From: Christiangramia sp. OXR-203
Lineage (GTDB): Bacteria; Bacteroidota; Bacteroidia; Flavobacteriales; Flavobacteriaceae
NCBI RefSeq assembly: GCF_034372165.1
Contig: NZ_CP139698.1
Location: 1,116,001 to 1,180,000 of the forward strand
Reading direction: 5' to 3'
Length of the DNA stretch: 64,000 bases
Shown: positions 30,488-47,057 of the stretch, piece after piece
How the letters are laid out: every line of letters begins with the position of its first letter
How positions within the stretch are numbered: position 1 is the stretch's first letter
Notes under the pieces: model-generated
What the model saw: only the letters and a program-made list of their open reading frames with translations
What the model was told of the DNA's origin: nothing
The model's database searches: none
Program-made: the position numbers and the translations under genes

Positions 30488-30495
30488 TAGTTTTA
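30488..30495 (+). promoter_or_regulatory. ilvL: Candidate -7 element of the ilv operon promoter
   Basis: TAGTTTTA matches 7 of 8 positions of TAnnTTTG. It ends 4 nt before the leader-peptide ATG at 30500, the same spacing seen at the arg leader. The -33 element is weak. A start site at or near the ATG would make the leader peptide leaderless. Confidence 0.45.
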
Positions 30496-30499
30496 AACC

Positions 30500-30553
30500 A
30501 TGATTAGTATTGTTGAAAAATTCGTTGTGGCGGTGTTGGAAATTTTGTTCTAA
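30500..30553 (+). CDS. ilvL: ilv leader peptide (17 aa, attenuator)
   Basis: The mini-ORF encodes MISIVEKFVVAVLEILF and stops with TAA. Nine of its 17 residues are Ile, Val or Leu (3 Ile, 4 Val, 2 Leu), the end products of the operon it precedes. A strong intrinsic terminator follows 36 nt after the stop and ilvD begins 250 nt downstream. This is the classic layout for ribosome-mediated attenuation. The leader segment GTGGC (30527-30531) is complementary to GCCAC in the terminator stem (30591-30595), so alternative folding is possible; the exact antiterminator is not resolved. Confidence 0.8.
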   Translation: MISIVEKFVVAVLEILF

Positions 30554-30589
30554 AAAGTTTCTACATTCCATTTTATCATAAGCTCATGA

Positions 30590-30615
30590 AGCCACCATTT
30601 CTGGTGGCTTTTTTT
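30590..30615 (+). terminator. Attenuator terminator of the ilv operon
   Basis: A perfect 8-bp stem (AGCCACCA and TGGTGGCT) with a TTTC loop is followed by seven T. It lies between the ilv leader peptide and ilvD, in the transcript of the operon itself rather than at the end of a gene, which marks it as an attenuator. The 189 nt from 30616 to 30804 are AT-rich; I see no further ORF or clear motif there. Confidence 0.88.
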
Positions 30616-30804: not shown

Positions 30805-32478
30805 ATGAATACCAAATATAGCAGCACCATAACGCAAAGTGATTCTCAACCAGCTTCCCAGGCCATGCTTCACGCCATTGGATTGAGCAGGGAAGATCTC
30901 AAAAAACCTTTCGTAGGGATAGGAAGTACCGGGTATGAAGGTAATCCCTGTAACATGCATCTCAATGATCTTGCAAAAGAGGTTAAAAAAGGGACTCAGC
31001 AAGCCGGTATAAACGGACTTATTTTTAATACGATTGGCGTAAGTGATGGAATTTCCATGGGAACTCCAGGAATGCGTTTTTCTCTTCCCTCTAGGGATCT
31101 AATTGCAGATTCCATGGAAACAGTCGTTAGCGGAATGTCTTATGACGGACTCGTAACTGTAGTTGGCTGTGACAAGAATATGCCAGGTGCACTCATGGCA
31201 ATGCTAAGATTAAACCGTCCTTCGGTATTAGTGTATGGAGGAACGATCTCTTCTGGTTGTCATAATGGTAAAAAACTAGATGTGGTTTCGGCTTTTGAAG
31301 CCTGGGGTTCTAAGGTTTCCGGGGAAATGCAGGAAGAGGAATATCAACAGGTCATCGAAAAAGCCTGTCCTGGTGCCGGAGCATGTGGTGGTATGTATAC
31401 TGCAAATACTATGGCTTCAGCAATTGAAGCTCTGGGAATGAGTCTGCCATTTAACAGCTCTAATCCTGCAACCGGTCCTGAAAAGGTGAAGGAAAGTGTA
31501 AAAGCTGGAGAAGCTATGCAACTGCTACTTGAAAAAGATCTCAAACCTAAAGATATCGTATCTGCCAAATCTCTTGAAAATGCCATTAGATTATTGACCG
31601 TACTTGGTGGTTCTACCAATGCTGTGCTGCATTTTCTGGCGATCGCTAAAGCTGCGGATATCAATTTTGGATTAAAGGATTTTGAAAGAATTTGTGAAGA
31701 AACTCCATTTCTAGCAGATCTTAAGCCTAGTGGTAAATACCTTATGGAAGATATTCACAGGATTGGTGGAATCCCGGCCGTCATGAAGTACATGCTGGAG
31801 AAAGGACTGCTCCACGGGGATTGCATGACGGTTACCGGAAAAACCATAGCAGAAAATCTTGAGGAGGTAGAATCTATGCCTTTTGATCAGGATATAATAT
31901 ACCCGGTAGAGAAACCTATTAAAGCGACAGGACATATTAGAATACTATACGGGAATCTCGCTTCTGAAGGTTCCGTAGCAAAAATAACAGGAAAGGAAGG
32001 TTTGAAATTCCACGGTAAAGCGAAAGTTTTCAATGGTGAATATGATGCCAATGAAGGGATTTCATCTGGAAAGGTACAAAAAGGTGATGTAGTCGTCATT
32101 AGATATGAAGGTCCTAAAGGTGGTCCTGGAATGCCGGAAATGCTAAAACCTACTTCAGCAATTATGGGAGCTGGTCTGGGTAAGAATGTGGCTTTGATCA
32201 CCGATGGTAGATTTTCTGGAGGAACTCATGGATTTGTCGTGGGGCATATTACTCCGGAAGCGCAACAGGGCGGACTAATTGGATTGCTGAAAGATGGCGA
32301 TGAAATAAGTATTAATGCCGAAACAAATAAAATCGAAGCTCATTTGAGTGATGAAGAAATAAGTAAGAGAAGAGCAGTATGGAAAGCGCCCGCATTCAAA
32401 GCAAAAGGAGGCGTGCTTTATAAATACGCGAAAACAGTAGCATCAGCATCAGAAGGTTGCGTGACAGATGAATTTTAA
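30805..32478 (+). CDS. ilvD: Dihydroxy-acid dehydratase
   Basis: The 557-residue Fe-S enzyme catalyses the third common step of isoleucine and valine synthesis. Family motifs: an N-terminal [15 protein letters not shown], the cluster ligand region [30 protein letters not shown], and C-terminal [20 protein letters not shown]. The length is typical. It is the first structural gene after the ilv leader, with ilvB 12 nt downstream. Confidence 0.97.
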
Positions 32479-36235: not shown

Positions 36236-37509
36236 TGGAAACTCTGCTGGAAAAGGATACGATTTACAAACCTAGTCTTAAAGCGGTTAAAGAGGCTTCG
36301 GAAAGGATCTCAAAGGTGGTGCTGAAAACTCCTTTAGCTGAATCTTTTACCTATAGCAAGCGCTTGGATGCAAAGGTAATGCTGAAGCGTGAGGATTTAC
36401 AACAGGTTAGATCCTATAAAATTCGTGGAGCCTATAATAAGATCTCCAGTTTACCACAGGAACAGCTTGAAAAAGGTGTGATCTGTGCCAGTGCCGGCAA
36501 TCACGCTCAGGGTGTTGCCTTTGCCTGCAATAAGCTCAAAGTTAAGGGTGTGATCTATATGCCTGGCACCACGCCACAACAAAAGGTGGAGCAAACTGAG
36601 ATGTTTGGTGGTGAATGGGTGGAAGTAGTGCTGAAGGGTGATACCTATGATGATTCCTATAAGAGTGCTATGGCTCATATGGCTGAAAAAGGACTTATTT
36701 TCATTCATCCTTTCGATGATGAAAAAGTTATTGAAGGTCAGGCGACCATTGCCCTGGAGATTCTTGAGCAAGCAAATGAACCTATAGATTATGTTTTTGC
36801 TCCACTAGGCGGTGGTGGACTCCTGGCAGGAATTTCTTCCATGTTCAAGGAACTATCGCCCAATACTAAGATCATTGGCATCGAACCGCAGGGTGCACCA
36901 TCAATGAAAACCTCTCTAAAAGAAGGTAAAGTGGTCGAGCTGGATCATATTGAACGATTTGTAGATGGCGCCTCTGTCCAGAAAGTTGGAACGCGAAATT
37001 TTGCTATTTGTAAGGAAAACCTGGATGAAATGATCACAGTGCCGGAAGGAAAGATCTGCCAGACCATCCTTGATCTCTATAACCAGGATGCCATGGTAGT
37101 GGAACCGGCCGGAGCCATGGCGATTTCAGCTTTGGATCTCTATGCTGAAAAGATCAAGGGGAAGAACGTTGTTTGTATCGTTAGTGGCAGTAACAACGAT
37201 ATCATCCGGATGGCCGAGATCAAGGAACGTGCATTATTATATTCTGGATTAAAACATTATTTCGTAATCGTTTTCCCTCAAAGAGCAGGGGCCTTAAAGG
37301 AATTTGTAGCAAAAGTCATGGGACCAAATGATGATATTACTCATTTTGAATATTCTAAAAAGCATAACAGGTCGAACGGGCCAGCGGTTGTGGGTATTGA
37401 GCTGAAGGATCCAGCTGACTTTGAACCCCTGGTAGAGAGAATGAAACAGAAGAATTTTTATGGGGAATATTTGAATAATAATCCAAATTTATTTCAATTT
37501 TTGATCTAG
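36235..37509 (+). CDS. ilvA: Threonine ammonia-lyase (biosynthetic, ACT-containing)
   Basis: The 424-residue PLP enzyme deaminates threonine to 2-oxobutyrate, the first step to isoleucine. The PLP Schiff-base Lys62 lies in QQVRSYKIRGAYNK, and the phosphate-binding loop is PLGGGGLLAG. A single ACT-like domain fills the last ~85 residues (from HYFVIVFPQRAGALKEF), shorter than the two-domain E. coli enzyme. It is the last gene of the ilv operon. No terminator is obvious before the arginine leader, so some read-through is possible. Confidence 0.95.
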   Translation: METLLEKDTIYKPSLKAVKEASERISKVVLKTPLAESFTYSKRLDAKVMLKREDLQQVRSYKIRGAYNKISSLPQEQLEKGVICASAGNHAQGVAFACNKLKVKGVIYMPGTTPQQKVEQTEMFGGEWVEVVLKGDTYDDSYKSAMAHMAEKGLIFIHPFDDEKVIEGQATIALEILEQANEPIDYVFAPLGGGGLLAGISSMFKELSPNTKIIGIEPQGAPSMKTSLKEGKVVELDHIERFVDGASVQKVGTRNFAICKENLDEMITVPEGKICQTILDLYNQDAMVVEPAGAMAISALDLYAEKIKGKNVVCIVSGSNNDIIRMAEIKERALLYSGLKHYFVIVFPQRAGALKEFVAKVMGPNDDITHFEYSKKHNRSNGPAVVGIELKDPADFEPLVERMKQKNFYGEYLNNNPNLFQFLI

Positions 37510-37535: not shown

Positions 37536-37543
37536 TACATTTG
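37536..37543 (+). promoter_or_regulatory. -7 promoter element of the arginine operon
   Basis: TACATTTG matches TAnnTTTG exactly and ends 4 nt before the ATG of the first arginine leader peptide at 37548. A weak CTG in place of the -33 TTG lies 17 nt upstream. The geometry suggests that transcription starts at or very near the leader ATG. Confidence 0.6.
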
Positions 37544-37547
37544 TAAT

Positions 37548-37610
37548 ATGATTTCGATCAATAAGATAATATTAGTCCGTTTCAATTTCAGGCCCCGCCG
37601 CCGCTTCTAG
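37548..37610 (+). CDS. arg leader peptide 1 (20 aa, Arg-rich)
   Basis: The mini-ORF encodes MISINKIILVRFNFRPRRRF and ends with TAG. Five of its last ten residues are Arg (CGT, AGG and three successive CGC codons). It directly precedes the arginine operon and its coding region overlaps the 5' arm of an attenuator-like hairpin (37574-37633). Its first four residues, MISI, are shared with the ilv leader peptide. Ribosome stalling at the CGC run when arginyl-tRNA is scarce would alter folding of this hairpin. Function is inferred from composition and position. Confidence 0.72.
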   Translation: MISINKIILVRFNFRPRRRF

Positions 37611-37633
37611 GCAGCACCCCGAAACGACTTTTT
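37574..37633 (+). terminator. Attenuator-like hairpin in the arg leader
   Basis: AGT-C-CGTTTC (37574-37583, one bulged C) pairs with GAAACGACT (37621-37629), followed by a T-rich stretch TTTTTATTATTATTATT. The loop is long (37 nt) and carries the CGC codon run plus a smaller GCCGCC/GGCAGC inverted repeat. A translating ribosome on leader peptide 1 would cover the 5' arm, as expected for an attenuator. It is weaker than the ilv terminator. Confidence 0.55.
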
Positions 37634-37670
37634 ATTATTATTATCTTACATCCCAATTTTGAACTACATA

Positions 37671-37756
37671 AACGGCATAGAATACAAACTTAATATCAGA
37701 TCATTTTCTGATATTTCCCCTATGCGCCGCCGTTTTCCCCGTCGCACGTAAGTGCG
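37671..37756 (+). promoter_or_regulatory. Structured RNA around arg mini-ORF 2
   Basis: AATATCAG (37692-37699) pairs perfectly with CTGATATT (37708-37715). Outside it, GCATAG (37675-37680) pairs with CTATGC (37720-37725), which contains the AUG of mini-ORF 2, and AACGGC (37671-37676) can alternatively pair with GCCGTT (37729-37734). Downstream, CGCAC-GTAA-GTGCG (37743-37756) forms a stem with a GNRA loop that holds the mini-ORF stop codon. The 88 nt from 37757 to the first gene hold only a weak GGAAC/GTTCC repeat. Confidence 0.55.
37722..37751 (+). CDS. arg leader peptide 2 (9 aa, Arg-rich)
   Basis: The mini-ORF encodes MRRRFPRRT and ends with TAA; five of nine residues are Arg (CGC, CGC, CGT, CGT, CGC). 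It shares the RRRF string with leader peptide 1. It lies 93 nt before the first structural gene of the arginine operon, inside a structured region whose stem includes its start codon. A second, downstream arginine-sensing element is the simplest reading. Chance occurrence of such a peptide at this place is unlikely but not excluded. Confidence 0.65.
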   Translation: MRRRFPRRT

Positions 37757-37844
37757 TCTATTTATCTATGGAACTTAGGTGAGTCCGGTTCCGCTCTCGA
37801 AAACCCAGATCAAAATTTAATTTCCAACATAAATCTTTTAGCAG

Positions 37845-38477
37845 ATGAAAATTCTCATTGCTAATAAATCTCACGCTTCCTATGCTGAGATCATTTGTAA
37901 TACTATCGAAGAATCGGCAAAGGTTCGTGGTACCGGTATTGCGCGCAGAACTCCTGAATATATCATCAAAAAGATGGAGAAGGGAAACGCTGTGATCGCT
38001 CTCAAGGAGGAAAAGTTTGCCGGTTTCTGTTATATAGAAACCTGGAGCCACGACAAGTATGTGGCTAATTCCGGACTCATTGTCCATCCCGATTTTAGAA
38101 ATCAGGGACTGGCGAAAGATATCAAAAATGTCATTTTTGATCATTCCCGTAAGAAATATCCGGAAGCTAAAATATTCGGGATCACCACAGGTTTAGCAGT
38201 CATGAAGATCAATTATGATCTGGGCTATCAACCGGTCACCTTTTCTGAACTTACCGATGATGAGACATTCTGGAAAGGATGCCAGACCTGTAAGAATTAC
38301 GATGTACTTACCCGAACAGATCATAAGATGTGTTTGTGTACAGGAATGATGTATGATCCCGAGAAGAAGAAAAATCCTAAGATGGTCGAGAAGCCTAAAA
38401 GTAAATTCAACGAAAAGGCATTTCAGCGATTAAAGCATATCAAGCAAACTCTTTTCTATAAGAAGGAAAAGGGTTGA
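37845..38477 (+). CDS. GNAT-family acetyltransferase heading the arginine operon (candidate N-acylglutamate synthase)
   Basis: The 210-residue protein has a GNAT domain in residues 1-135 with acetyl-CoA motif A at 81-90 (HPDFRNQGLA). The C-terminal part carries a four-cysteine cluster (Cys146, Cys149, Cys163, Cys165) that looks like a metal site, then a Lys-rich tail. It is the first gene behind the arginine leader. No canonical argA or argJ is present in the operon although argB, argC, argD and argE are. A role in making N-acetyl- or N-succinylglutamate is therefore inferred, not shown. Confidence 0.75.
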   Translation: MKILIANKSHASYAEIICNTIEESAKVRGTGIARRTPEYIIKKMEKGNAVIALKEEKFAGFCYIETWSHDKYVANSGLIVHPDFRNQGLAKDIKNVIFDHSRKKYPEAKIFGITTGLAVMKINYDLGYQPVTFSELTDDETFWKGCQTCKNYDVLTRTDHKMCLCTGMMYDPEKKKNPKMVEKPKSKFNEKAFQRLKHIKQTLFYKKEKG

Positions 38478-38585: not shown

Positions 38586-39773
38586 ATGAAAAAAGTAGTT
38601 ATAGCATATAGTGGAGGACTGGATACCTCATATTGTGCAAAATATTTATCTGAAGAAGAAGGTTTTGAAGTTCATGCCGTAAGTGTGAATACCGGAGGAT
38701 TTTCAGAAGAAGAAATAAAAAATATTGGTGATAACGCCAAAAAGATAGGAGCGAGTAGCTACAAAAATATCGATGCGGTCAACTCCTTTTACGAAAAAGT
38801 GGTAAAATATCTCATTTTTGGAAATGTGCTTAAGAATGATACCTATCCTTTATCTGTAAGTGCCGAGAGGATCGTACAGGCCATGGAAATTGTGAATTAC
38901 GCAAAAAAAACAGGTGCTGGATATATCGCCCATGGTAGCACCGGTGCAGGTAACGACCAGGTTCGATTTGATATGATCTTTCAGATCATTGCTCCAGAAA
39001 TACAGATTATAACTCCAATAAGAGACAAACAACTAAGCAGACAGGAAGAGATCGAATACCTTAAAAGTAAAGGGGTTGAGATGAACTGGGATAAAGCAAA
39101 TTATTCAGTTAATAAAGGCCTTTGGGGAACCAGTGTTGGAGGAGCAGAAACTCTGACTTCAGAAAAACCATTGCCGCAAGAGGCTTTCCCTTCTCAATTG
39201 GAGGAAAAGCAACCAAAGCAAATTAAGTTATCATTTACAAATGGTGAGCTCACTGCTATTGATGGAACTGAAAATGAACCTTTGCAGAATATAGAAATCC
39301 TCGAAGGTATCGCTTCAAAGTATGCAATTGGGAGAGACATTCATGTAGGTGATACGATCATAGGAATTAAAGGTAGAGTAGGTTTTGAAGCAGCTGCAGC
39401 ACTTATCACTATTAAAGCGCATCATCTTCTAGAGAAGCATACGCTAAGCAAATGGCAATTACAACATAAAGATTATACCTCGAACTGGTATGGGATGCAT
39501 CTGCATGAAGGATTATACCTGGATCCTGTAATGAGAGATTTCGAAGCCCAGTTACAGAGTTCTCAATCCAAGGTCACGGGTGACGTTTTTGTAAGCCTGA
39601 AACCTTACCATTTTACGCTGGATGGGATTAGCTCACCGAATGATCTTATGAACAGCAGCTTTGGGAATTATGGTGAAGAGAACAAAGCCTGGACAGCCGA
39701 AGATGCCAAAGGATTTATTAAGATCCTTTCTAATTCTGGAATGATATACCAACACGTAAATCAGGATTCATGA
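38586..39773 (+). CDS. argG: Argininosuccinate synthase
   Basis: The 395-residue enzyme joins citrulline and aspartate with ATP. The N-terminal P-loop AYSGGLDTSYCAKYL is at residues 8-22; AHGSTGAGNDQVRFD and the EYLKSKG region follow, and the C-terminal tetramerisation part covers about 270-395. The spacing after the GNAT gene is 108 nt. It overlaps argC by ATGA. Confidence 0.96.
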   Translation: MKKVVIAYSGGLDTSYCAKYLSEEEGFEVHAVSVNTGGFSEEEIKNIGDNAKKIGASSYKNIDAVNSFYEKVVKYLIFGNVLKNDTYPLSVSAERIVQAMEIVNYAKKTGAGYIAHGSTGAGNDQVRFDMIFQIIAPEIQIITPIRDKQLSRQEEIEYLKSKGVEMNWDKANYSVNKGLWGTSVGGAETLTSEKPLPQEAFPSQLEEKQPKQIKLSFTNGELTAIDGTENEPLQNIEILEGIASKYAIGRDIHVGDTIIGIKGRVGFEAAAALITIKAHHLLEKHTLSKWQLQHKDYTSNWYGMHLHEGLYLDPVMRDFEAQLQSSQSKVTGDVFVSLKPYHFTLDGISSPNDLMNSSFGNYGEENKAWTAEDAKGFIKILSNSGMIYQHVNQDS

Positions 39774-40735
39774 TAGAGGCAGGAATTATTGGAGGAGCAG
39801 GTTATACTGCGGGAGAATTGATCAGGATCTTATTATACCATCCTGAAGTAAACCTGAATTTTGTCTACAGTACTTCTCAACCCGGCAAGCCTGTTCACAG
39901 TATTCACCAGGATCTTATTGCAGAGACTGAACTTAAGTTCACTAACCTGATCAATAAGAAGGCAGACGTGGTTTTTCTTTGTCTCGGACATGGGAATTCT
40001 AAAAAGTTTCTTTCAGAAAATGAGTTTTCAGAAAGAACGAAGATCGTAGATCTAAGCACAGATTTCAGAATGAAATCGAACGATCATACTTTTGTTTATG
40101 GACTTCCGGAAATAAATAAGGATAAGATCCAGTCTGCGAGTTTTATTGCGAACCCGGGATGTTTTGCTACAGCGATTAGCCTGGCGATTCTTCCATTGGC
40201 ACAGGCAGGTTTATTGCTGGAAGACGTACATGTGAATGCCGTAACTGGTGCAACCGGTGCTGGTACTTCGCTTTCTAAAACAACACATTTTACCTGGAGA
40301 GACAATAATTTTTCAGCTTATAAAAGCTTTGAGCATCAGCATTTGCAGGAAATCGGGCAGAGTCTAAAGCAGCTACAGGAATATCATAGTGCCGCGATCA
40401 ATTTTATTCCGAATAGAGGGAATTTTTCAAGAGGTATTCATGTAACAGCATACACAAAATTTGAAGGTGACCTGGAAAAGGCAAAATTGATGTATTCCGA
40501 ATTCTATAAAAATGCTGCATTCACTTTTGTTACTGATGAGGAATTGCACTTAAAACAAGTCGTGAATTCTAATAAGTGCCTGTTGAGGTTGCAAAAATTT
40601 GATGACAAATTATTGATTACAAGTGTGATCGATAATTTACTGAAAGGTGCTTCAGGACAGGCTGTTCAAAACATGAATCTAATGTTTGGCTTTGAAGAGA
40701 AAACAGGTTTGAATCTAAAAGCAAGTTATTTCTAA
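39770..40735 (+). CDS. argC: N-acetyl-gamma-glutamyl-phosphate reductase
   Basis: The 321-residue NADPH enzyme reduces the N-acylglutamyl phosphate to the semialdehyde. The Rossmann start is AGIIGGAGYTAGELIRIL, and the catalytic Cys131 lies in ANPGCFATAISLAILPL. HVTAYTKF marks the C-terminal part. It overlaps argG by four bases. Substrate acyl group (acetyl or succinyl) is open, see the transcarbamylase. Confidence 0.95.
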   Translation: MIEAGIIGGAGYTAGELIRILLYHPEVNLNFVYSTSQPGKPVHSIHQDLIAETELKFTNLINKKADVVFLCLGHGNSKKFLSENEFSERTKIVDLSTDFRMKSNDHTFVYGLPEINKDKIQSASFIANPGCFATAISLAILPLAQAGLLLEDVHVNAVTGATGAGTSLSKTTHFTWRDNNFSAYKSFEHQHLQEIGQSLKQLQEYHSAAINFIPNRGNFSRGIHVTAYTKFEGDLEKAKLMYSEFYKNAAFTFVTDEELHLKQVVNSNKCLLRLQKFDDKLLITSVIDNLLKGASGQAVQNMNLMFGFEEKTGLNLKASYF

Positions 40736-40793
40736 AGTTCAGAATTAGATGGATTTTATCTATTACACAAGAATGATTGATAATTAAAGCGAT

Positions 40794-41588
40794 ATGAAAA
40801 TAGCAATTATAGGTGCTGGGAATCTGGGTGTTTCCATTGCGAAGGGCCTCATCTTCAGTAATGCGTTTACGACGCTTTACCTAAGTAAAAGAAAGATTGA
40901 AGATATCCAGGAATTTGAAGAATATGCAAAGGTTCATGTAAGTTCAGATAATCTGGAAGCAGTTAGAAATTCTGATATTCTGATCTTTGCCGTTCAGCCC
41001 ACGCAGTTTGAACGCATTCTTGAGGAGATCAAAGACGAACTTACAGATAAGCATGTTTTGATCTCAACAGTTACCGGTTTTAGGATTCCCAGAATCGAAG
41101 CTATCATTGGTAAGGAGCATTATATCATCAGGTCAATGCCCAATACGGCAATCGCTGTTGGGAAATCCATGACCTGTTTGTGTAGTAATGAAGTAGGTGA
41201 AAAAAGGATAAAGATCGCTGAAGCTATTTTTAACAGACTGGGAACAAGTATTATCATTCCTGAGAACAAAATGCAGGCAGCAACGGTTATTTGTGCCAGT
41301 GGTGTTGCTTTCTGGCTGCGTTTAATACGTGCGACCACTCAGGGAGCTGTACAACTTGGGTTTGATGCGAAAGAAGCTCAGGAGCTCTCTATGCAAACCT
41401 GCCTGGGAGCCGCTAGTCTTTTGATAGAATCCGGTAAACATCCGGAGGAAGAGATCGACAAGGTTACCACTCCAAGAGGCTGCACTATAGAAGGTCTTAA
41501 CGAGATGGAACATAACGGCCTGAGTTCCTCACTAATTAAAGGAATACAAGCCTCTTTTAAAAAGATTAATACAATATCAGACCAGTAA
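40794..41588 (+). CDS. proC: Pyrroline-5-carboxylate reductase
   Basis: The 264-residue enzyme reduces pyrroline-5-carboxylate to proline. It has the N-terminal dinucleotide motif IAIIGAGNLGVSIAKGL, the IRSMPNTAIAVGKSM block, and the C-terminal signature VTTPRGCTIEGLNEMEHNG. It is embedded in the arginine operon, 2 nt before argD. This suggests coupling of proline formation to arginine/ornithine metabolism or a promiscuous reductase role. Confidence 0.93.
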   Translation: MKIAIIGAGNLGVSIAKGLIFSNAFTTLYLSKRKIEDIQEFEEYAKVHVSSDNLEAVRNSDILIFAVQPTQFERILEEIKDELTDKHVLISTVTGFRIPRIEAIIGKEHYIIRSMPNTAIAVGKSMTCLCSNEVGEKRIKIAEAIFNRLGTSIIIPENKMQAATVICASGVAFWLRLIRATTQGAVQLGFDAKEAQELSMQTCLGAASLLIESGKHPEEEIDKVTTPRGCTIEGLNEMEHNGLSSSLIKGIQASFKKINTISDQ

Positions 41589-41590
41589 TT

Positions 41591-42745
41591 ATGGAGTTAT
41601 TTGATGTTTACCCGTTATACGATATCACCCCGGTAAAAGGCGATGGATGCTATGTTTATGATGAAAGCGGCAGGAAATACCTGGATTTTTATGGAGGTCA
41701 TGCGGTCATCTCTATTGGTCATGCGCATCCAGACTATGTACAGGCCATACAAACTCAGGTGGCGAAACTTGGGTTTTATTCCAATTCCATCAAAAATCCC
41801 CTGCAAAATGAACTTGCTGGTAAACTGGAAGAAATTTCTGGAATTCAGGATTATACGCTGTTCTTATGTAGCTCTGGAGCTGAAGCGAATGAAAATGCAC
41901 TAAAAGTTGCTTCTTTCCATACGGGCAAGGACAGGATCATTTACTTCGAGAATGCTTTTCACGGTAGAACTTCTGGCGTAGTGGCGATTACCGATAATGA
42001 AACTATCAAAGCACCATTTAATAAAGGTCATAAGGCTACCCGATTGGCATTTAATAATATAGCTGCATTAGAAACTGAATTTAGAAAAGGGGATGTTGCG
42101 GCGGTTATTTTTGAAGTGATCCAGGGTGTTGGCGGACTGGATGAAGCAGACTCCGGTTTCTACAAGGCTGCGGCCGATATTTGTAAGGAGTACGATGTCA
42201 TGCTAATCGCAGATGAGGTACAGTCTGGTTTTGGTAGAACCGGTGATTTCTTTGCTTTTCAGAAGCATGGCATCAGGCCAGACATTATTAGTATGGCTAA
42301 AGGGATGGGAAATGGCTTCCCTGTCGGCGGAATTTTGATCGACCGTAATATTCCTCCTCGCTACGGAATGCTGGGTACGACTTTCGGCGGAAATCATCTT
42401 GCATGTGCTGCGGCGATTTCAGTTTTAGATACTATCAAAGAAGAAAACCTGATGCAGAATGCTGCTGAAGTTTCAGAATATATCCGGGAGGAAGCAGCTA
42501 AGATTTCAGAAATAAAAAAGATAAAAGGTCGTGGTTTGATGATAGGACTGGAGTTTGACTTTGAGATCGCTGCACTTCGGAAGGAATTACTATTTGATTT
42601 CCAGATTTTTACAGGGGCTTCATCTAACAAAAAACTACTGCGAATCCTTCCACCATTAAATATTCAGAAAGAACATTTTCAGGTCTTTTTTGAAGCTTTA
42701 CAACAAGCATTGAAAAATCAAAAAATAAGCTCCGAAACTTCCTGA
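41591..42745 (+). CDS. argD: N-acylornithine aminotransferase
   Basis: The 384-residue class III PLP aminotransferase makes N-acylornithine from the semialdehyde. Motifs: YLDFYGGHAVISIGHAHP, CSSGAEANENALKVA, EVIQGVGG, LIADEVQSGFGRTG, and the PLP Lys237 in SMAKGMGNGFPVGG. Ornithine aminotransferase (rocD) is a close relative, but the operon favours ArgD. Confidence 0.93.
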   Translation: MELFDVYPLYDITPVKGDGCYVYDESGRKYLDFYGGHAVISIGHAHPDYVQAIQTQVAKLGFYSNSIKNPLQNELAGKLEEISGIQDYTLFLCSSGAEANENALKVASFHTGKDRIIYFENAFHGRTSGVVAITDNETIKAPFNKGHKATRLAFNNIAALETEFRKGDVAAVIFEVIQGVGGLDEADSGFYKAAADICKEYDVMLIADEVQSGFGRTGDFFAFQKHGIRPDIISMAKGMGNGFPVGGILIDRNIPPRYGMLGTTFGGNHLACAAAISVLDTIKEENLMQNAAEVSEYIREEAAKISEIKKIKGRGLMIGLEFDFEIAALRKELLFDFQIFTGASSNKKLLRILPPLNIQKEHFQVFFEALQQALKNQKISSETS

Positions 42746-42809
42746 GGAATATTTCAGAAAAAATAATTTGCAGAGTTAGTAAACTTCGGTTTTCAGAAAA
42801 AATATAAGA

Positions 42810-43757
42810 ATGAAAAACTATATAAACCTATCAGATATTGAGGATCTTAAAACATTGATCCATGACGCAAGAGGTATGAAATCGAATCCTTCAGAAGAAA
42901 AACCTGGAAAAGGTAAGACTCTGGGGATGTTATTCTTCAATCCAAGTCTTCGTACCCGTCTAAGCACTGAAAGAGCTGCCAGATTATTGGGTATGGAGGT
43001 GATGGTCATGAATGCTGACAAAGATGGTTGGGCTTTGGAATTTGAAGATGGTGCGATTATGAATTCAGACAAGGCAGAACATATAAAAGAAGCAGCTGCT
43101 GTACTTTCACAATATTGCGATATCATCGCGGTACGGGCATTTCCAGGCCTTAAAGACAGGGAGAAGGATGAAACTGAAGTGGTGATGAATAGTTTTAAAA
43201 AGTACGCTTCAGTTCCCATAGTGAATCTGGAAAGCGCTACTGGCCACCCGTTGCAGGCTTTAACAGATGCGATTACCATTCAGGAATTAAGTGGGAAATC
43301 TCGACCAAAGGTAGTATTGACATGGGCTCCGCACCCAAAAGCCTTACCACCATCTGTAGCGAATTCTTTTACTGAAGTGATGCAGAAAATGGAAGTTGAT
43401 CTTGTGATCGCTAATCCTGAAGGTTATGATCTGGATCCAAAAATTCGAAAGAATGTTCGTGTGGAGCATGACCAGAAAAAAGCCTTTAAGGACGCCGACT
43501 TTGTGTATGTAAAAAACTGGAGTAGTTATGAAAAATACGGTCAGGTACTCGAGGTCGAAGAAAATTGGACCGTAGATCAGGCTAAATTAAAGAAAACCAA
43601 TAACGCAAAAGTGATGCATTGTCTTCCTGTTAGAAGAAACGTCGTGATCGCTGATGATATCCTGGATAGTGATAATTCTATTGTGATCCAGCAGGCGAAT
43701 AACAGAACCTATGCAGCACAAGCGGTGTTAAAAAAATTATTGGAATGCTCGAAATAG
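42810..43757 (+). CDS. argF': N-acylornithine transcarbamylase (acetyl- or succinyl-ornithine type)
   Basis: The 315-residue protein carbamoylates an N-acylated ornithine instead of ornithine itself. The carbamoyl-phosphate motif is FFNPSLRTRLSTE (residues 42-54). The Trp74 region GWALEFEDGAIMNSDKAEHIKEAA and AVRAFPGLKDREKDE replace the usual ornithine-site features, and the C-terminal VMHCLPVRRNV is present. It lies with argB, argE and argH. In the relatives studied, a residue 15 after the Trp decides acetyl (Glu) versus succinyl (Pro) preference; here it is Ala89. The acyl group is thus uncertain. Overlaps argB by 13 bp. Confidence 0.9.
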   Translation: MKNYINLSDIEDLKTLIHDARGMKSNPSEEKPGKGKTLGMLFFNPSLRTRLSTERAARLLGMEVMVMNADKDGWALEFEDGAIMNSDKAEHIKEAAAVLSQYCDIIAVRAFPGLKDREKDETEVVMNSFKKYASVPIVNLESATGHPLQALTDAITIQELSGKSRPKVVLTWAPHPKALPPSVANSFTEVMQKMEVDLVIANPEGYDLDPKIRKNVRVEHDQKKAFKDADFVYVKNWSSYEKYGQVLEVEENWTVDQAKLKKTNNAKVMHCLPVRRNVVIADDILDSDNSIVIQQANNRTYAAQAVLKKLLECSK

Positions 43758-44545
43758 TTCATAATCCGGCGACAGATGTTCTTAATGTCATTAAAATAGG
43801 AGGTAAGCTCATCGAAAACCAAGAGCTGCTCGATTCTTTCCTGAAAGATTTTGTTCAGCTGAAAGGTCCTAAAATTCTTGTACACGGAGGTGGAAATAAA
43901 GCTACTGAAGTCGCAGGAAAATTAGGCTTTAAAACTCAGATGGTTAATGGCAGAAGAATTACGGATAAGAATTCTATGGAAGTGATCACGATGGTTTATG
44001 GCGGACTTTTAAACAAAAGTATCGTTGCAAAATTGCAGGGAAATAAACAAAACGCGATCGGACTTTGCGGAGCAGATGCTAACGTACTAATTTCTAGAAA
44101 ACGTGAAGTTAAAGAAATTGATTATGGCCTGGTAGGGGATGTGGTCAAGGTAAATACAGAATTTATCAAATCACTCTTGAAACAGGAGATCGTGCCCGTA
44201 TTTTCAGCGATTTCTTCTACGGAAGAAGGTGTTTTGCTGAATACTAACGGAGATTCGGTAGCTTCAGAAATAGCGATTGCCATGAGCAATATCTATACAA
44301 CCCAGCTGTTTTACTGTTCAGAAAAGAAAGGAGTTCTAAAGAATGTGGATGATGATACTTCAGTAATTGCGGAGCTGAATTCAGATGATTATCAACAATT
44401 GAAAGCATCTAAAGTGATCACAGATGGGATGTTGCCAAAACTTCATAATTGCTTTGAAGCCATCAATAGAGGAGTTTCCACCGTTTATCTAGGAGATGCT
44501 GAGCTTTTGAAAAAGGGTGCAGCACATACAAAAATTGTAAACTAA
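43745..44545 (+). CDS. argB: N-acetylglutamate kinase
   Basis: The 266-residue amino-acid kinase phosphorylates N-acylglutamate. It has the N-terminal VIKIGGKLIENQELL, the glycine loop LVHGGGNKATEVAGKLG and a C-terminal ATP-site region VITDGMLPKLHNCFEAINRG. It overlaps the transcarbamylase by 13 bp and argE by one base (TAATG). Confidence 0.94.
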   Translation: MLEIVHNPATDVLNVIKIGGKLIENQELLDSFLKDFVQLKGPKILVHGGGNKATEVAGKLGFKTQMVNGRRITDKNSMEVITMVYGGLLNKSIVAKLQGNKQNAIGLCGADANVLISRKREVKEIDYGLVGDVVKVNTEFIKSLLKQEIVPVFSAISSTEEGVLLNTNGDSVASEIAIAMSNIYTTQLFYCSEKKGVLKNVDDDTSVIAELNSDDYQQLKASKVITDGMLPKLHNCFEAINRGVSTVYLGDAELLKKGAAHTKIVN

Positions 44546-45615
44546 TGCAGATCAAAGAACTTCAGAAGGAAGCATTGCAACTATTGCAGAACCTCATCAG
44601 GACCCAATCTTTTTCAGGAGAAGAAGATAAAACAGCAGACTGTCTTGAACGATGGTTTACAGACCACAACATTCCGCATCAGCGAAGCCTCAATAATGTC
44701 TGGGCGACCAGTAAGCATTTCGACGATACAAAACCAAATCTGTTGCTGAATTCACATCATGACACGGTAAAACCAAATTCAGCTTATACCAGAGATCCTT
44801 TCGAGGCAAAAATAGAAAATGGTAAATTGTATGGTCTTGGTAGCAATGATGCGGGGGGCTGCCTTGTTTCTCTGTTGGCTACATTCACTTATTTATATTC
44901 CGAACAGAATTTAAATTATAATATCATTTTCGCCGGAACCGCTGAAGAGGAGATTAACGGAACGAATGGTATTGCAGAACTATTACCAAAATTACCGAAG
45001 ATAGATGTTGCTATTGTTGGGGAACCAACCCTGATGAATCTTGCAGTAGCTGAAAAAGGCCTTATTGTTTTCGATGCAGGAGTAAAAGGAACTCCTTCGC
45101 ATGCAGCTCATCCAAATACTGATAACTCGATCTATAAAACTGCGCGAGTTCTAAACTGGTTCGAAAATTTTAAATTAGAGAAGGTCTCAGAAAGTCTGGG
45201 AGAAGTGAAAGTGACAGTCACGCAGATCAAGGCTGGAAGTCAGCATAATGTAGTGCCCGCTAAGACGCATTTGGTGATCGATGTTCGGGTAAACGATAAA
45301 TATTGCAATGCAGAGATCGAGCAAATATTAAAAGAAAAAGCGCCAGTAGATGAGATCACTGCGAGAAGTTTAAGATTGAATTCGTCTTCGATTCCACAAG
45401 ATCATGACCTTGTAAAAGCAGGAATAGAAATAGGGATGGAAACTTATGGCTCGCCAACACTTTCAGACCAGGCGATGTTGAGCTGTCCTTCACTAAAATT
45501 AGGACCGGGAGATTCTACCAGATCACATTCGGCTGATGAATTTATTTATGTAAAGGAGATCGAAGAAGGTATTGAAAAGTATATAAAATTGCTTGAAAAA
45601 ACACTTAGGAAATAA
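44545..45615 (+). CDS. argE: M20-family deacylase, N-acetylornithine/N-acetylcitrulline deacetylase
   Basis: The 356-residue zinc peptidase-like enzyme has metal-binding motifs NSHHDTVKP, GSNDAGG and GTAEEEINGTNG, with the His of SRSHSADEFIYV-type C-terminal block (TRSHSADEF). In organisms that carbamoylate N-acylornithine, this step releases citrulline from N-acylcitrulline, which argG then uses. Its place between argB and argH supports that. It starts with TAATG overlap to argB. Confidence 0.92.
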   Translation: MQIKELQKEALQLLQNLIRTQSFSGEEDKTADCLERWFTDHNIPHQRSLNNVWATSKHFDDTKPNLLLNSHHDTVKPNSAYTRDPFEAKIENGKLYGLGSNDAGGCLVSLLATFTYLYSEQNLNYNIIFAGTAEEEINGTNGIAELLPKLPKIDVAIVGEPTLMNLAVAEKGLIVFDAGVKGTPSHAAHPNTDNSIYKTARVLNWFENFKLEKVSESLGEVKVTVTQIKAGSQHNVVPAKTHLVIDVRVNDKYCNAEIEQILKEKAPVDEITARSLRLNSSSIPQDHDLVKAGIEIGMETYGSPTLSDQAMLSCPSLKLGPGDSTRSHSADEFIYVKEIEEGIEKYIKLLEKTLRK

Positions 45616-45630
45616 TATCACTGAAATTGT

Positions 45631-45667
45631 TGCACTGAGCCTGTCGAAGTGCGACAAGCTCAGTGCA
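45631..45667. repeat. REP-like palindromic repeat between argE and argH
   Basis: TGCACTGAGCCTGTCG and CGACAAGCTCAGTGCA form a 16-bp inverted repeat with a single G-T mismatch position and an AAGTG loop. Related CTGAGC..GTCGAAG palindromes are common between genes in Bacteroidota. Only this copy is seen here; a partial echo, CAGCGAAGTC, occurs at 45731-45740. It may fold as an mRNA stem in the 164-nt argE-argH gap. Confidence 0.75.
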
Positions 45668-45779
45668 GCGATGGTAATAATGTTAGGCTGAAATTGTTCA
45701 ACTTCTCATAAGATCTTAAATTCAGAAATTCAGCGAAGTCAAACCAGTTCAGGATAACGGATATTAAAAAATAAAAACT

Positions 45780-47057
45780 ATGAAACTTTGGGATAAAGGC
45801 ATTTCAATAGATAAGCAGATCGAGAAATTTACCGTGGGAAATGATCGTGAACTCGATATGCATCTAGCTAAATATGATATACAGGCATCTACAGCGCACG
45901 CGAAGATGCTGGGGAAAGTTGGAATTCTGGATGCACAGGAAGTAGATTTATTAGTTTCAGAATTGGAGCTATTGAATCAGCAACTCGAAAAAGGTGAATT
46001 TAAGATCGAAGAAGATTTTGAAGATGTGCATTCCAAAATCGAATACGAACTCACTTCCAAACTGGGAGATACTGGAAAAAAGATCCATACTGCCCGATCA
46101 AGAAATGATCAGGTGCTTGTAGCTCAACAATTATATTTTAAAGAAAACCTGCTGGAGATTTCTGGAAAGACTAGGAATTTAATCGATGTACTTTTAAACC
46201 TTGCCGAGGAACATAAGGAAAAATTGCTTCCCGGGTACACACATCTACAGGTGGCGATGCCTTCATCTTTTGGTTTATGGTTTTCAGCTTACGCAGAATT
46301 ATTAATTGATGATCTATACTTACTCGATGCAGGGTTGAAGATCGTGGATCAAAATCCGCTGGGTTCTGCTGCAGGATATGGCTCTTCTTTTCCTATAGAC
46401 AGGGAATTTACCACCAGGGAACTCGGCTTTGCAACCCAGAAATACAATGTTGTAGCTGCCCAGATGAGTAGGGGGAAATGTGAGCGAACGGTTACTGCCA
46501 ATATCTCCTCTCTTGCAAACACACTTTCCAGGTTCGCTATGGATATTTGCTTGTATATGAGTCAGAACTTTGATTTTATCACTTTTCCAGATGAATTAAC
46601 AACCGGTTCCAGTATCATGCCGCACAAAAAAAATCCCGATGTTTTCGAACTCGTTAGAGGAAAGTGTAATAAGCTGCAGGCTATCGCAAATGAGATGATC
46701 CTAATCACTAATAATCTTCCAAGTGGATATCACAGGGATTTCCAGCTTATCAAAGAGAATAGTATTTATGCGGTGGAAAACATCAAAGAAATTCTGGACG
46801 TTTTCACCTATTCCATCAGCAAGATCATTTTGAAAAATATCGATATCAGGGACGAGAAATATAAGTATTTGTTTACCGTAGATAGTATCAACGAACTCGT
46901 GATAGGAGGTAAGTCATTTCGGGATGCATACCAGATCATTGGAGAACAGGTCCAAAATGACACTTATGAAGCTACCGAAGGCATGCAGCATACTCATTCC
47001 GGTAGTAAGGATAATCTTTCACTAAATATGATCAGGACAAAATTGCAGCAGTTATAA
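45780..47057 (+). CDS. argH: Argininosuccinate lyase
   Basis: The 425-residue enzyme splits argininosuccinate into arginine and fumarate. Family blocks are present: DVHSKIEYELTSKLG, HTARSRNDQVL, YTHLQVAMPSSFG, and the fumarase/lyase signature GSSIMPHKKNPDVFEL beginning at residue 276. It is the last gene of the arginine operon and converges with leuB. Confidence 0.95.
   Translation: MKLWDKGISIDKQIEKFTVGNDRELDMHLAKYDIQASTAHAKMLGKVGILDAQEVDLLVSELELLNQQLEKGEFKIEEDFEDVHSKIEYELTSKLGDTGKKIHTARSRNDQVLVAQQLYFKENLLEISGKTRNLIDVLLNLAEEHKEKLLPGYTHLQVAMPSSFGLWFSAYAELLIDDLYLLDAGLKIVDQNPLGSAAGYGSSFPIDREFTTRELGFATQKYNVVAAQMSRGKCERTVTANISSLANTLSRFAMDICLYMSQNFDFITFPDELTTGSSIMPHKKNPDVFELVRGKCNKLQAIANEMILITNNLPSGYHRDFQLIKENSIYAVENIKEILDVFTYSISKIILKNIDIRDEKYKYLFTVDSINELVIGGKSFRDAYQIIGEQVQNDTYEATEGMQHTHSGSKDNLSLNMIRTKLQQL

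Follow-up and report, generated by a model that had tools for sequence, protein, structure and literature searches.

Ribosome-mediated attenuators of the trp, his, ilv and thr type combine a leader peptide rich in codons for the pathway's product with an overlapping hairpin and T tract. For arginine biosynthesis the textbook control is a repressor, ArgR. TnaC and SpeFL are arrest peptides, the former with a Pro before its stop codon. The present analysis concerns the 5' end of the arginine operon of Christiangramia sp. OXR-203 (Flavobacteriaceae), contained in a 64,000-nucleotide stretch of contig NZ_CP139698.1 (positions 1,116,001 to 1,180,000), hereafter the window; coordinates are those of the window, and the leader elements and the operon lie on its + strand. 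The 335-nt gap between the ilvA stop codon (37507-37509) and the start of the first operon gene, which encodes a GNAT-domain acetyltransferase (37845), holds two Arg-rich mini open reading frames (mini-ORFs), one in each of two elements (element 1, 37536-37640; element 2, 37659-37792). We propose, as a probable reading of the sequence, that two successive arginine checkpoints, both read by the ribosome, control the operon from its 5' end.

Element 1 shares with the trp, his, ilv and thr attenuators a leader rich in pathway-product codons, overlapping a hairpin and T tract ahead of the first structural gene. The locus differs from them in serving the arginine pathway, usually the domain of ArgR, in having two leaders in series, and in a first leader that is predicted to be leaderless. 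Element 2 departs further: a conserved stem-loop is present, and any terminator is weak at best.

Leader-peptide attenuation has already been noted in general terms in this family. Strong clues to it precede amino-acid operons in Flavobacterium psychrophilum (PMC9723704), which has in common with the present locus the family, the type of operon and the same -7 promoter box, and leader-like small ORFs are described in Bacteroides thetaiotaomicron (PMC7366714). The main text of PMC9723704 mentions arginine once, in another context, and no arginine leader, tandem arrangement or hairpin like that of element 2 in this group came up among the papers listed in searches of open-licence literature. The arginine tandem would be a new variation on this theme. 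Considered by itself, the second hairpin of element 2 (stem-loop 2) may represent a new RNA element. The Salmonella speF leader (orf34) likewise contains consecutive Arg codons, and pausing there at low arginine changes RNA folding; it differs in controlling polyamine synthesis and in its output, which comprises Rho termination, exposure of the ribosome-binding site and decay by RNase G (PMC6386406).

Conservation of the two Arg-rich leaders

The first-pass annotation had reported two mini-ORFs with five Arg codons each, MISINKIILVRFNFRPRRRF (37548-37610) and MRRRFPRRT (37722-37751), and the sequence bears both out. It had also proposed alignment across the genus, and both leader frames are open in all 25 distinct Christiangramia (formerly Gramella) loci aligned. 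For the family, 111 upstream regions were sampled, one per genus label, among the GNAT matches listed, with stronger matches favoured and Flavobacterium absent. Scoring covered 110 loci, the window's own and one from each of 109 further Flavobacteriaceae genera, L125 and L138 having been dropped because they carry no recognisable hairpin. An Arg-rich frame ending just before stem-loop 2 is present in 101/110 loci, compared with a mean of 3.65 and a maximum of 7 in 20 rounds of dinucleotide shuffles. The upstream Arg-rich frame from ATG or GTG that defines element 1 occurs in 51/110 (shuffled mean 0.3, maximum 3), three of these (L111, L139 and L179) resembling, by eye, the ends of an upstream gene. 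This pattern is far beyond chance. The counts point to two architectures, element 1 followed by element 2, as in the window, or element 2 alone, and the arrangement, first described as unusual, is not peculiar to this genome.

The regulator that would be expected from the textbook is nearly absent. ArgR, searched as its N-terminal domain (PF01316), was not found in the window's genome and was found in 1/149 family genomes, where the match, in a 312-codon frame, is marginal (26.9 bits, or 27.3 with neighbours, for a cut-off of 27). The same model matched 9/14 control genomes, eight of them over the cut-off, with one Bacteroides among the nine. Known RNA families likewise offered no assignment: Rfam gave three chance-level matches on the window, far below gathering scores, a single match, to a ribosomal RNA in L049, on 13 loci, and none at E<=1 on four further loci. 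A T-box, a known riboswitch, Flavo-1 or another Rfam family was rejected for both elements, with no relevant covariance-model match in the loci tried.

Element 1: a predicted leader peptide overlapping a terminator-like hairpin

Element 1 has the layout of a classic attenuator. The -7 promoter box TACATTTG (37536..37543) follows the Bacteroidetes consensus TAnnTTTG, and since this box sits at -12 to -5 (PMC9723704), the predicted start site is 37548, the A of the leader 1 ATG. No clear -33 element was seen upstream of element 1 in the window. The spacing recurs across genera: of the 35 element-1 loci with four or more Arg, 33 have a TAnnTT(T/A) box ending 5-6 nt upstream of the start codon (26 at 5 nt, 7 at 6 nt), while a box of this kind lies somewhere within 16 nt in 21% of control windows. 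In 30 of the 54 loci that lack element 1, the last base of the box lies 7-8 nt ahead of the leader start; 9 others showed no box. Leaderless mRNAs account for 5.5% of those examined in F. psychrophilum (PMC9723704), so that a leaderless leader 1 would be a special feature.

Leader peptide 1, MISINKIILVRFNFRPRRRF (37548..37610), begins with ATG in 19 and GTG in 6 of the genus loci, and the same peptide type, e.g. MKNLKNKIRCTTPGLPVRNRRRF, turns up across many genera. The first mini-ORF was said to overlap an attenuator-like hairpin (37574-37633) with a T-rich tail, and the predicted fold agrees, with arms AGTCCGTTTC (37574-37583) and GAAACGACT (37621-37629); hairpin and T-rich tract together span 37574..37640. 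The 5' arm is part of the leader 1 frame and precedes its Arg cluster. Folding 37548-37640 gives a minimum energy of -18.4 kcal/mol (z -2.07), 9/200 shuffles folding equally well; a simple terminator scan, restricted to loops of 3-8 nt, did not list this hairpin. Over 49 loci (the 52 that meet the position rule, minus L139, L161 and L181, dropped by eye), native arms pair at -8.32 kcal/mol, against -6.84 kcal/mol with the 3' arms swapped, and 0/2000 permutations were as good, in a test that ignores the relatedness of the loci. A hairpin and T tract of the intrinsic-terminator kind lie between the leader and the structural genes and overlap the leader's codons, in a geometry that permits a stalled ribosome to mask the 5' arm. 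We regard element 1 as very likely to be an arginine attenuator of the ribosome-mediated kind.

Element 2: a probable second leader and a conserved stem-loop

Element 2 (37659-37792) joins a 30-codon Arg-rich frame to a series of stem-loops and probably serves as another checkpoint on Arg translation, one that includes a new RNA stem-loop. Leader peptide 2, LNYINGIEYKLNIRSFSDISPMRRRFPRRT (37659..37751), runs 30 codons from a TTG. This TTG and the open frame are kept in 25/25 genus loci, at 29-32 codons, while the ATG at 37722 is kept in 23/25; the second mini-ORF is real as an Arg-rich frame, but is probably the C-terminal third of a longer leader, with its ATG internal. Variability by codon position within the genus is highest at the third (0.208, 0.153, 0.279). 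Over 98 family loci, the peptide ends with R at -3 (84/98), R at -2 (93/98) and P at -1 (87/98), and the third base of codon -3 varies (CGT 64, CGC 19). This change is synonymous; the first-pass annotation had proposed to look for conservation of Arg codons as opposed to DNA. The stop codon stands 27-29 nt before the GG of stem-loop 2 in 80/98 loci.

The second mini-ORF had been placed in a separate structured segment, and stem-loops 0, 1 and 2 are indeed predicted in and after leader 2. Stem-loop 0, AATATCAGA/TCTGATATT (37692..37715), lies within the leader frame; it appears in the predicted fold, and the grid swap scan gives z -10.4 at its offset (99 loci, relatedness ignored). The Arg codons extend into stem-loop 1, CGCAC-GUAA-GUGCG (37743..37756), which holds the stop codon UAA in its loop and was found both by folding and by the terminator scan. 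A G+C-rich hairpin occupies this position in 95/99 loci, most commonly as CGCCC-GUAA-GGGUG (a count without shuffle control); the genus form preserves pairing, with one pair altered on both sides. A T-rich linker of 13 nt (37757..37769) joins it to stem-loop 2, GGAACU-UA-GG-UGAGU-CC-GGUUCC (37770..37792), whose conserved apex is AGGUGNGUCC.

Stem-loop 2 is conserved and covaries. The exact apex AGGTGNGTCC is present in 100/111 other genera, and of the 11 loci that lack it, L094, L145 and L161 show AGATGNGTTC instead, a paired change by which the inner pair is retained. Scored by register over 99 loci, among them the window, in which the exact apex stands at its usual distance, 575/594 stem positions are paired, compared with 487 +/- 6.3 (max 506) in 1000 shuffles of the 3' arms. 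Covariation, which the first-pass annotation had suggested looking for in the stems, amounts to 0.175 against 0.063 +/- 0.009 in alignment A4 (43 loci, out of 53 eligible ones that have CCCGTAAGGG and a bulge of one base). Five pairs are changed on both sides, all in stem-loop 2, and sliding the pairing partners abolishes the signal; stem-loop 1 had little room to vary in A4, its presence having been a criterion in choosing the loci. The two stem-loops form together when 37740-37800 is folded alone.

Several other pairings and origins were considered and set aside. Pairing of the Arg-codon region with the apex or 5' arm of stem-loop 2 is seen at single loci such as L115 and is not general. Support is weak for pairing of the first Arg codons of leader 2 with the start of that frame (genus z -2.8, single-type genera -3.0, tandem genera -1.9). 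As for a generic genomic element, the apex pattern occurs 5x in the window's genome, and by eye the flanking stem accompanies only the copy at the arginine operon.

Arg codon choice

Arg codon choice in both leaders differs from that in the window's long ORFs. CGC or CGT accounts for 375/397 Arg codons in the last 12 positions of leader 2 (98 loci) and 202/247 in leader 1 (49 loci), compared with 165/647 in the window's long ORFs, where AGA is the most used (278) and CGC contributes 39; this reference is the window's own, while the leader counts span many genera. The pairing of stem-loop 1 also constrains the last codons of leader 2. The bias suggests that the leaders demand CGY-reading tRNA-Arg, over half the time through CGC.

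Proposed mechanism and points against it

The case for two successive Arg-translating leaders is strong: the frames are conserved, codon choice is biased, the promoter box is suitably spaced, RNA structure is predicted and ArgR is nearly absent. The earlier claim of two arginine-sensing elements in series stands to that extent, while arginine sensing itself is something we infer. In the scheme set out here, the start site, translation, stalling, the direction of the response and the output of element 2 are all predictions from sequence. Transcription would start at or next to the leader 1 ATG, and a ribosome would load at once. Were charged tRNA-Arg for CGY codons scarce, this ribosome would stall in the leader 1 Arg cluster and cover the 5' arm of the hairpin; no terminator would form and RNA polymerase would read on. 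With enough arginine, the ribosome would reach the leader 1 stop codon and the transcript would end in the T-rich tract. At element 2, stalling at the terminal Arg codons of leader 2 would block stem-loop 1, altering what becomes of the RNA on which stem-loop 2 lies. A stalled ribosome would hold stem-loop 1 open because the Arg codons, the stop codon and this hairpin overlap. Stem-loop 2 would lie beyond the ribosome, its apex a possible contact site for a putative factor. The output of element 2 could be a weak terminator (stem-loop 1 plus linker), Rho-dependent termination or a change in RNA stability. The terminator evidence being weak, the latter two are favoured, as in the Salmonella speF leader.

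A set of observations weighs against this scheme. Leader 1 varies weakly by codon position within the genus (0.204, 0.173, 0.219), its element has modest fold z-scores (mean -1.75 over 49 loci), and element 1 is missing from about half of the sampled loci. The window's own leader 2 ends ..RRT where the family consensus is ..RRP-stop, T replacing the usual P. The best fold of 37659-37800 in the window pairs 37760-37784 with itself and does not contain stem-loop 2. No consistent long-range helix joins leader 2 to the region after stem-loop 2 (mean z +0.12 over 99 loci, four of which had z below -3), and folds and swap tests demonstrated a mutually exclusive antiterminator for neither element. 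The swap tests also ignore ancestry: at least 22/171 grid pairs lie at z -2.8 or lower, and further pairs of the scan reached -4 to -6 without explanation. The simple terminator rule is met by the linker in 49/95 loci, fewer than the 61.5 +/- 3.8 for shuffled linkers, because the T bases lie away from the stem. Finally, the exact apex is in none of nine distinct Flavobacterium loci (L035, L037, L038, L039, L054 and L249-L252; L248 appears to duplicate L038). Two of them, L035 and L037, show a degenerate variant, CGGTCCGTCC, and Arg frames are poorer across these loci. As a separate observation, L035, L037 and L039 have a leader with fewer Arg codons (e.g. ..SRMVRSI in L039) beside a terminator-like hairpin.

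Alternative explanations

Stem-loop 2 could be a stand-alone RNA element that binds a protein or small ligand, with the Arg frame only tuning access to it and element 1 as the sole leader-peptide sensor. We consider this unlikely, although its near-invariant apex and covarying stem are what such an element would show. Also in its favour, the element 2 covariance model, under strict filters, matches 14/345 genomes of the phylum sample, with one match in each and all labelled f1, and terminator evidence at element 2 is weak. Against it, stem-loop 2 is nearly always accompanied by the Arg frame, whose RRP-stop keeps a fixed register. Moreover, the leader looks like the older part. Stem-loop 2 is in 0/35 loci from other families, of which about 13 (L216-L224, L229-L232) hold Arg-rich frames that are convincing by eye, a judgement made without shuffle control; Arg-rich frames also occur at Bacteroidales and Saprospiraceae loci of the named contigs. 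Upstream of the GNAT gene, the Bacteroidales loci (L046-L051) carry a distinct, mutually similar leader, e.g. MNRDFFIFSFDGETFRVRR, then another structured-looking region ending GGAGGGATGTCCCTCC, unlike stem-loop 2.

A second ordinary attenuator at element 2, in which stem-loop 1 and the T-rich linker form a weak intrinsic terminator that is prevented by a ribosome stalled on the Arg codons, is about equally improbable. The simple terminator scan of the window does list stem-loop 1 (37743-37756; 1 found, 0.5 expected), the Arg codons form its 5' arm, and the linker, 12-13 nt long in 60/95 loci, is 56% T over 95 loci (34% after stem-loop 2) and satisfies the terminator rule in about half of them. 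However, the T bases do not adjoin the stem, occurring in 37/95 at the first linker position and in 63-71/95 at positions 9-12; shuffled linkers satisfy the rule more often, as noted above; and the conserved stem-loop 2 is left unexplained.

Somewhat less likely again is nascent-peptide arrest, in which the ..RRP-stop peptide would stall its own termination when arginine or a related metabolite such as ornithine or citrulline binds the ribosome, rather than through lack of charged tRNA. Like TnaC and SpeFL, the leader 2 peptide ends near a conserved stop codon, and it usually has Pro before the stop, as TnaC does; the C-terminal RRP and the stop position relative to the GG of stem-loop 2 are tightly conserved, while the upstream peptide varies widely. 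Unlike these arrest peptides, leader 2 has no comparable conserved peptide body. Beyond R, R and P little of the peptide is conserved, some variants end in T or continue to ..RRPLGV, and the CGY codon bias fits tRNA sensing. That the Arg-rich frames are mere by-products of conserved DNA or RNA sites, never read as peptides, is very improbable: the weak codon-position bias of element 1 within the genus agrees with it, but frame and stop are fixed in 25/25 genus loci, Arg codons change synonymously, and GTG, TTG and ATG exchange at the start.

The two-checkpoint reading can be extended to stem-loop 2 itself. Its covarying stem, bulged A and apex GG-UGNGU-CC might define a new RNA class for the Flavobacteriaceae arginine operon, a site for a putative trans-acting factor, arginine or a precursor. 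Wired to the RRP-stop leader, it would allow ribosome position and ligand binding to be read together, and in about half of the genera sampled a terminator-type arginine leader would precede it. This extension is tentative, and we would not call it probable.

Genomic context

Genes downstream of the leaders belong to the arginine pathway according to NCBIfam models. After the GNAT gene (37845..38477) the operon (38586..47057) comprises argG, argC, proC, an argD-like gene, the acetylornithine carbamoyltransferase gene, argB, an argE/dapE-like gene and argH; for the carbamoyltransferase gene, the acetylornithine model alone among its 16 NCBIfam models exceeds its cut-off. The presence of proC (pyrroline-5-carboxylate reductase, 40794-41588) inside the operon suggests that proline synthesis may share the arginine leaders. 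The GNAT protein reaches no NCBIfam cut-off (best model PRK07757, 23 bits for a cut-off of 154), has a cysteine cluster near its C-terminus and is present in 204/299 Flavobacteriaceae genomes. It is a candidate for the missing N-acyl-glutamate synthase.

A further predicted leader lies elsewhere in the window. At 30488-30615, a predicted leaderless leader peptide, MISIVEKFVVAVLEILF (30500-30553), is preceded by a -7-like box and followed by AGCCACC-ATTTCT-GGTGGCT, a strong hairpin that resembles a terminator and has a T run (30590-30615), upstream of a 557-codon ORF at 30805 (putative ilvD). By appearance it is an ordinary attenuator of the branched-chain type, built along the same lines.

Implications for the Flavobacteriaceae

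A large and ecologically important family appears to do without ArgR, sensing arginine instead by translating one or two leaders. These leaders suggest how Flavobacteriaceae could control the arginine pathway, and two leader-peptide sensors in series are directly testable. They also supply candidates for leaderless leaders among bacteria that initiate translation without Shine-Dalgarno pairing, together with a conserved RNA stem-loop that is put forward as new, with a putative partner. If the proposed RNA class is real, stem-loop 2 and the leaders would stand in for ArgR across the whole family.
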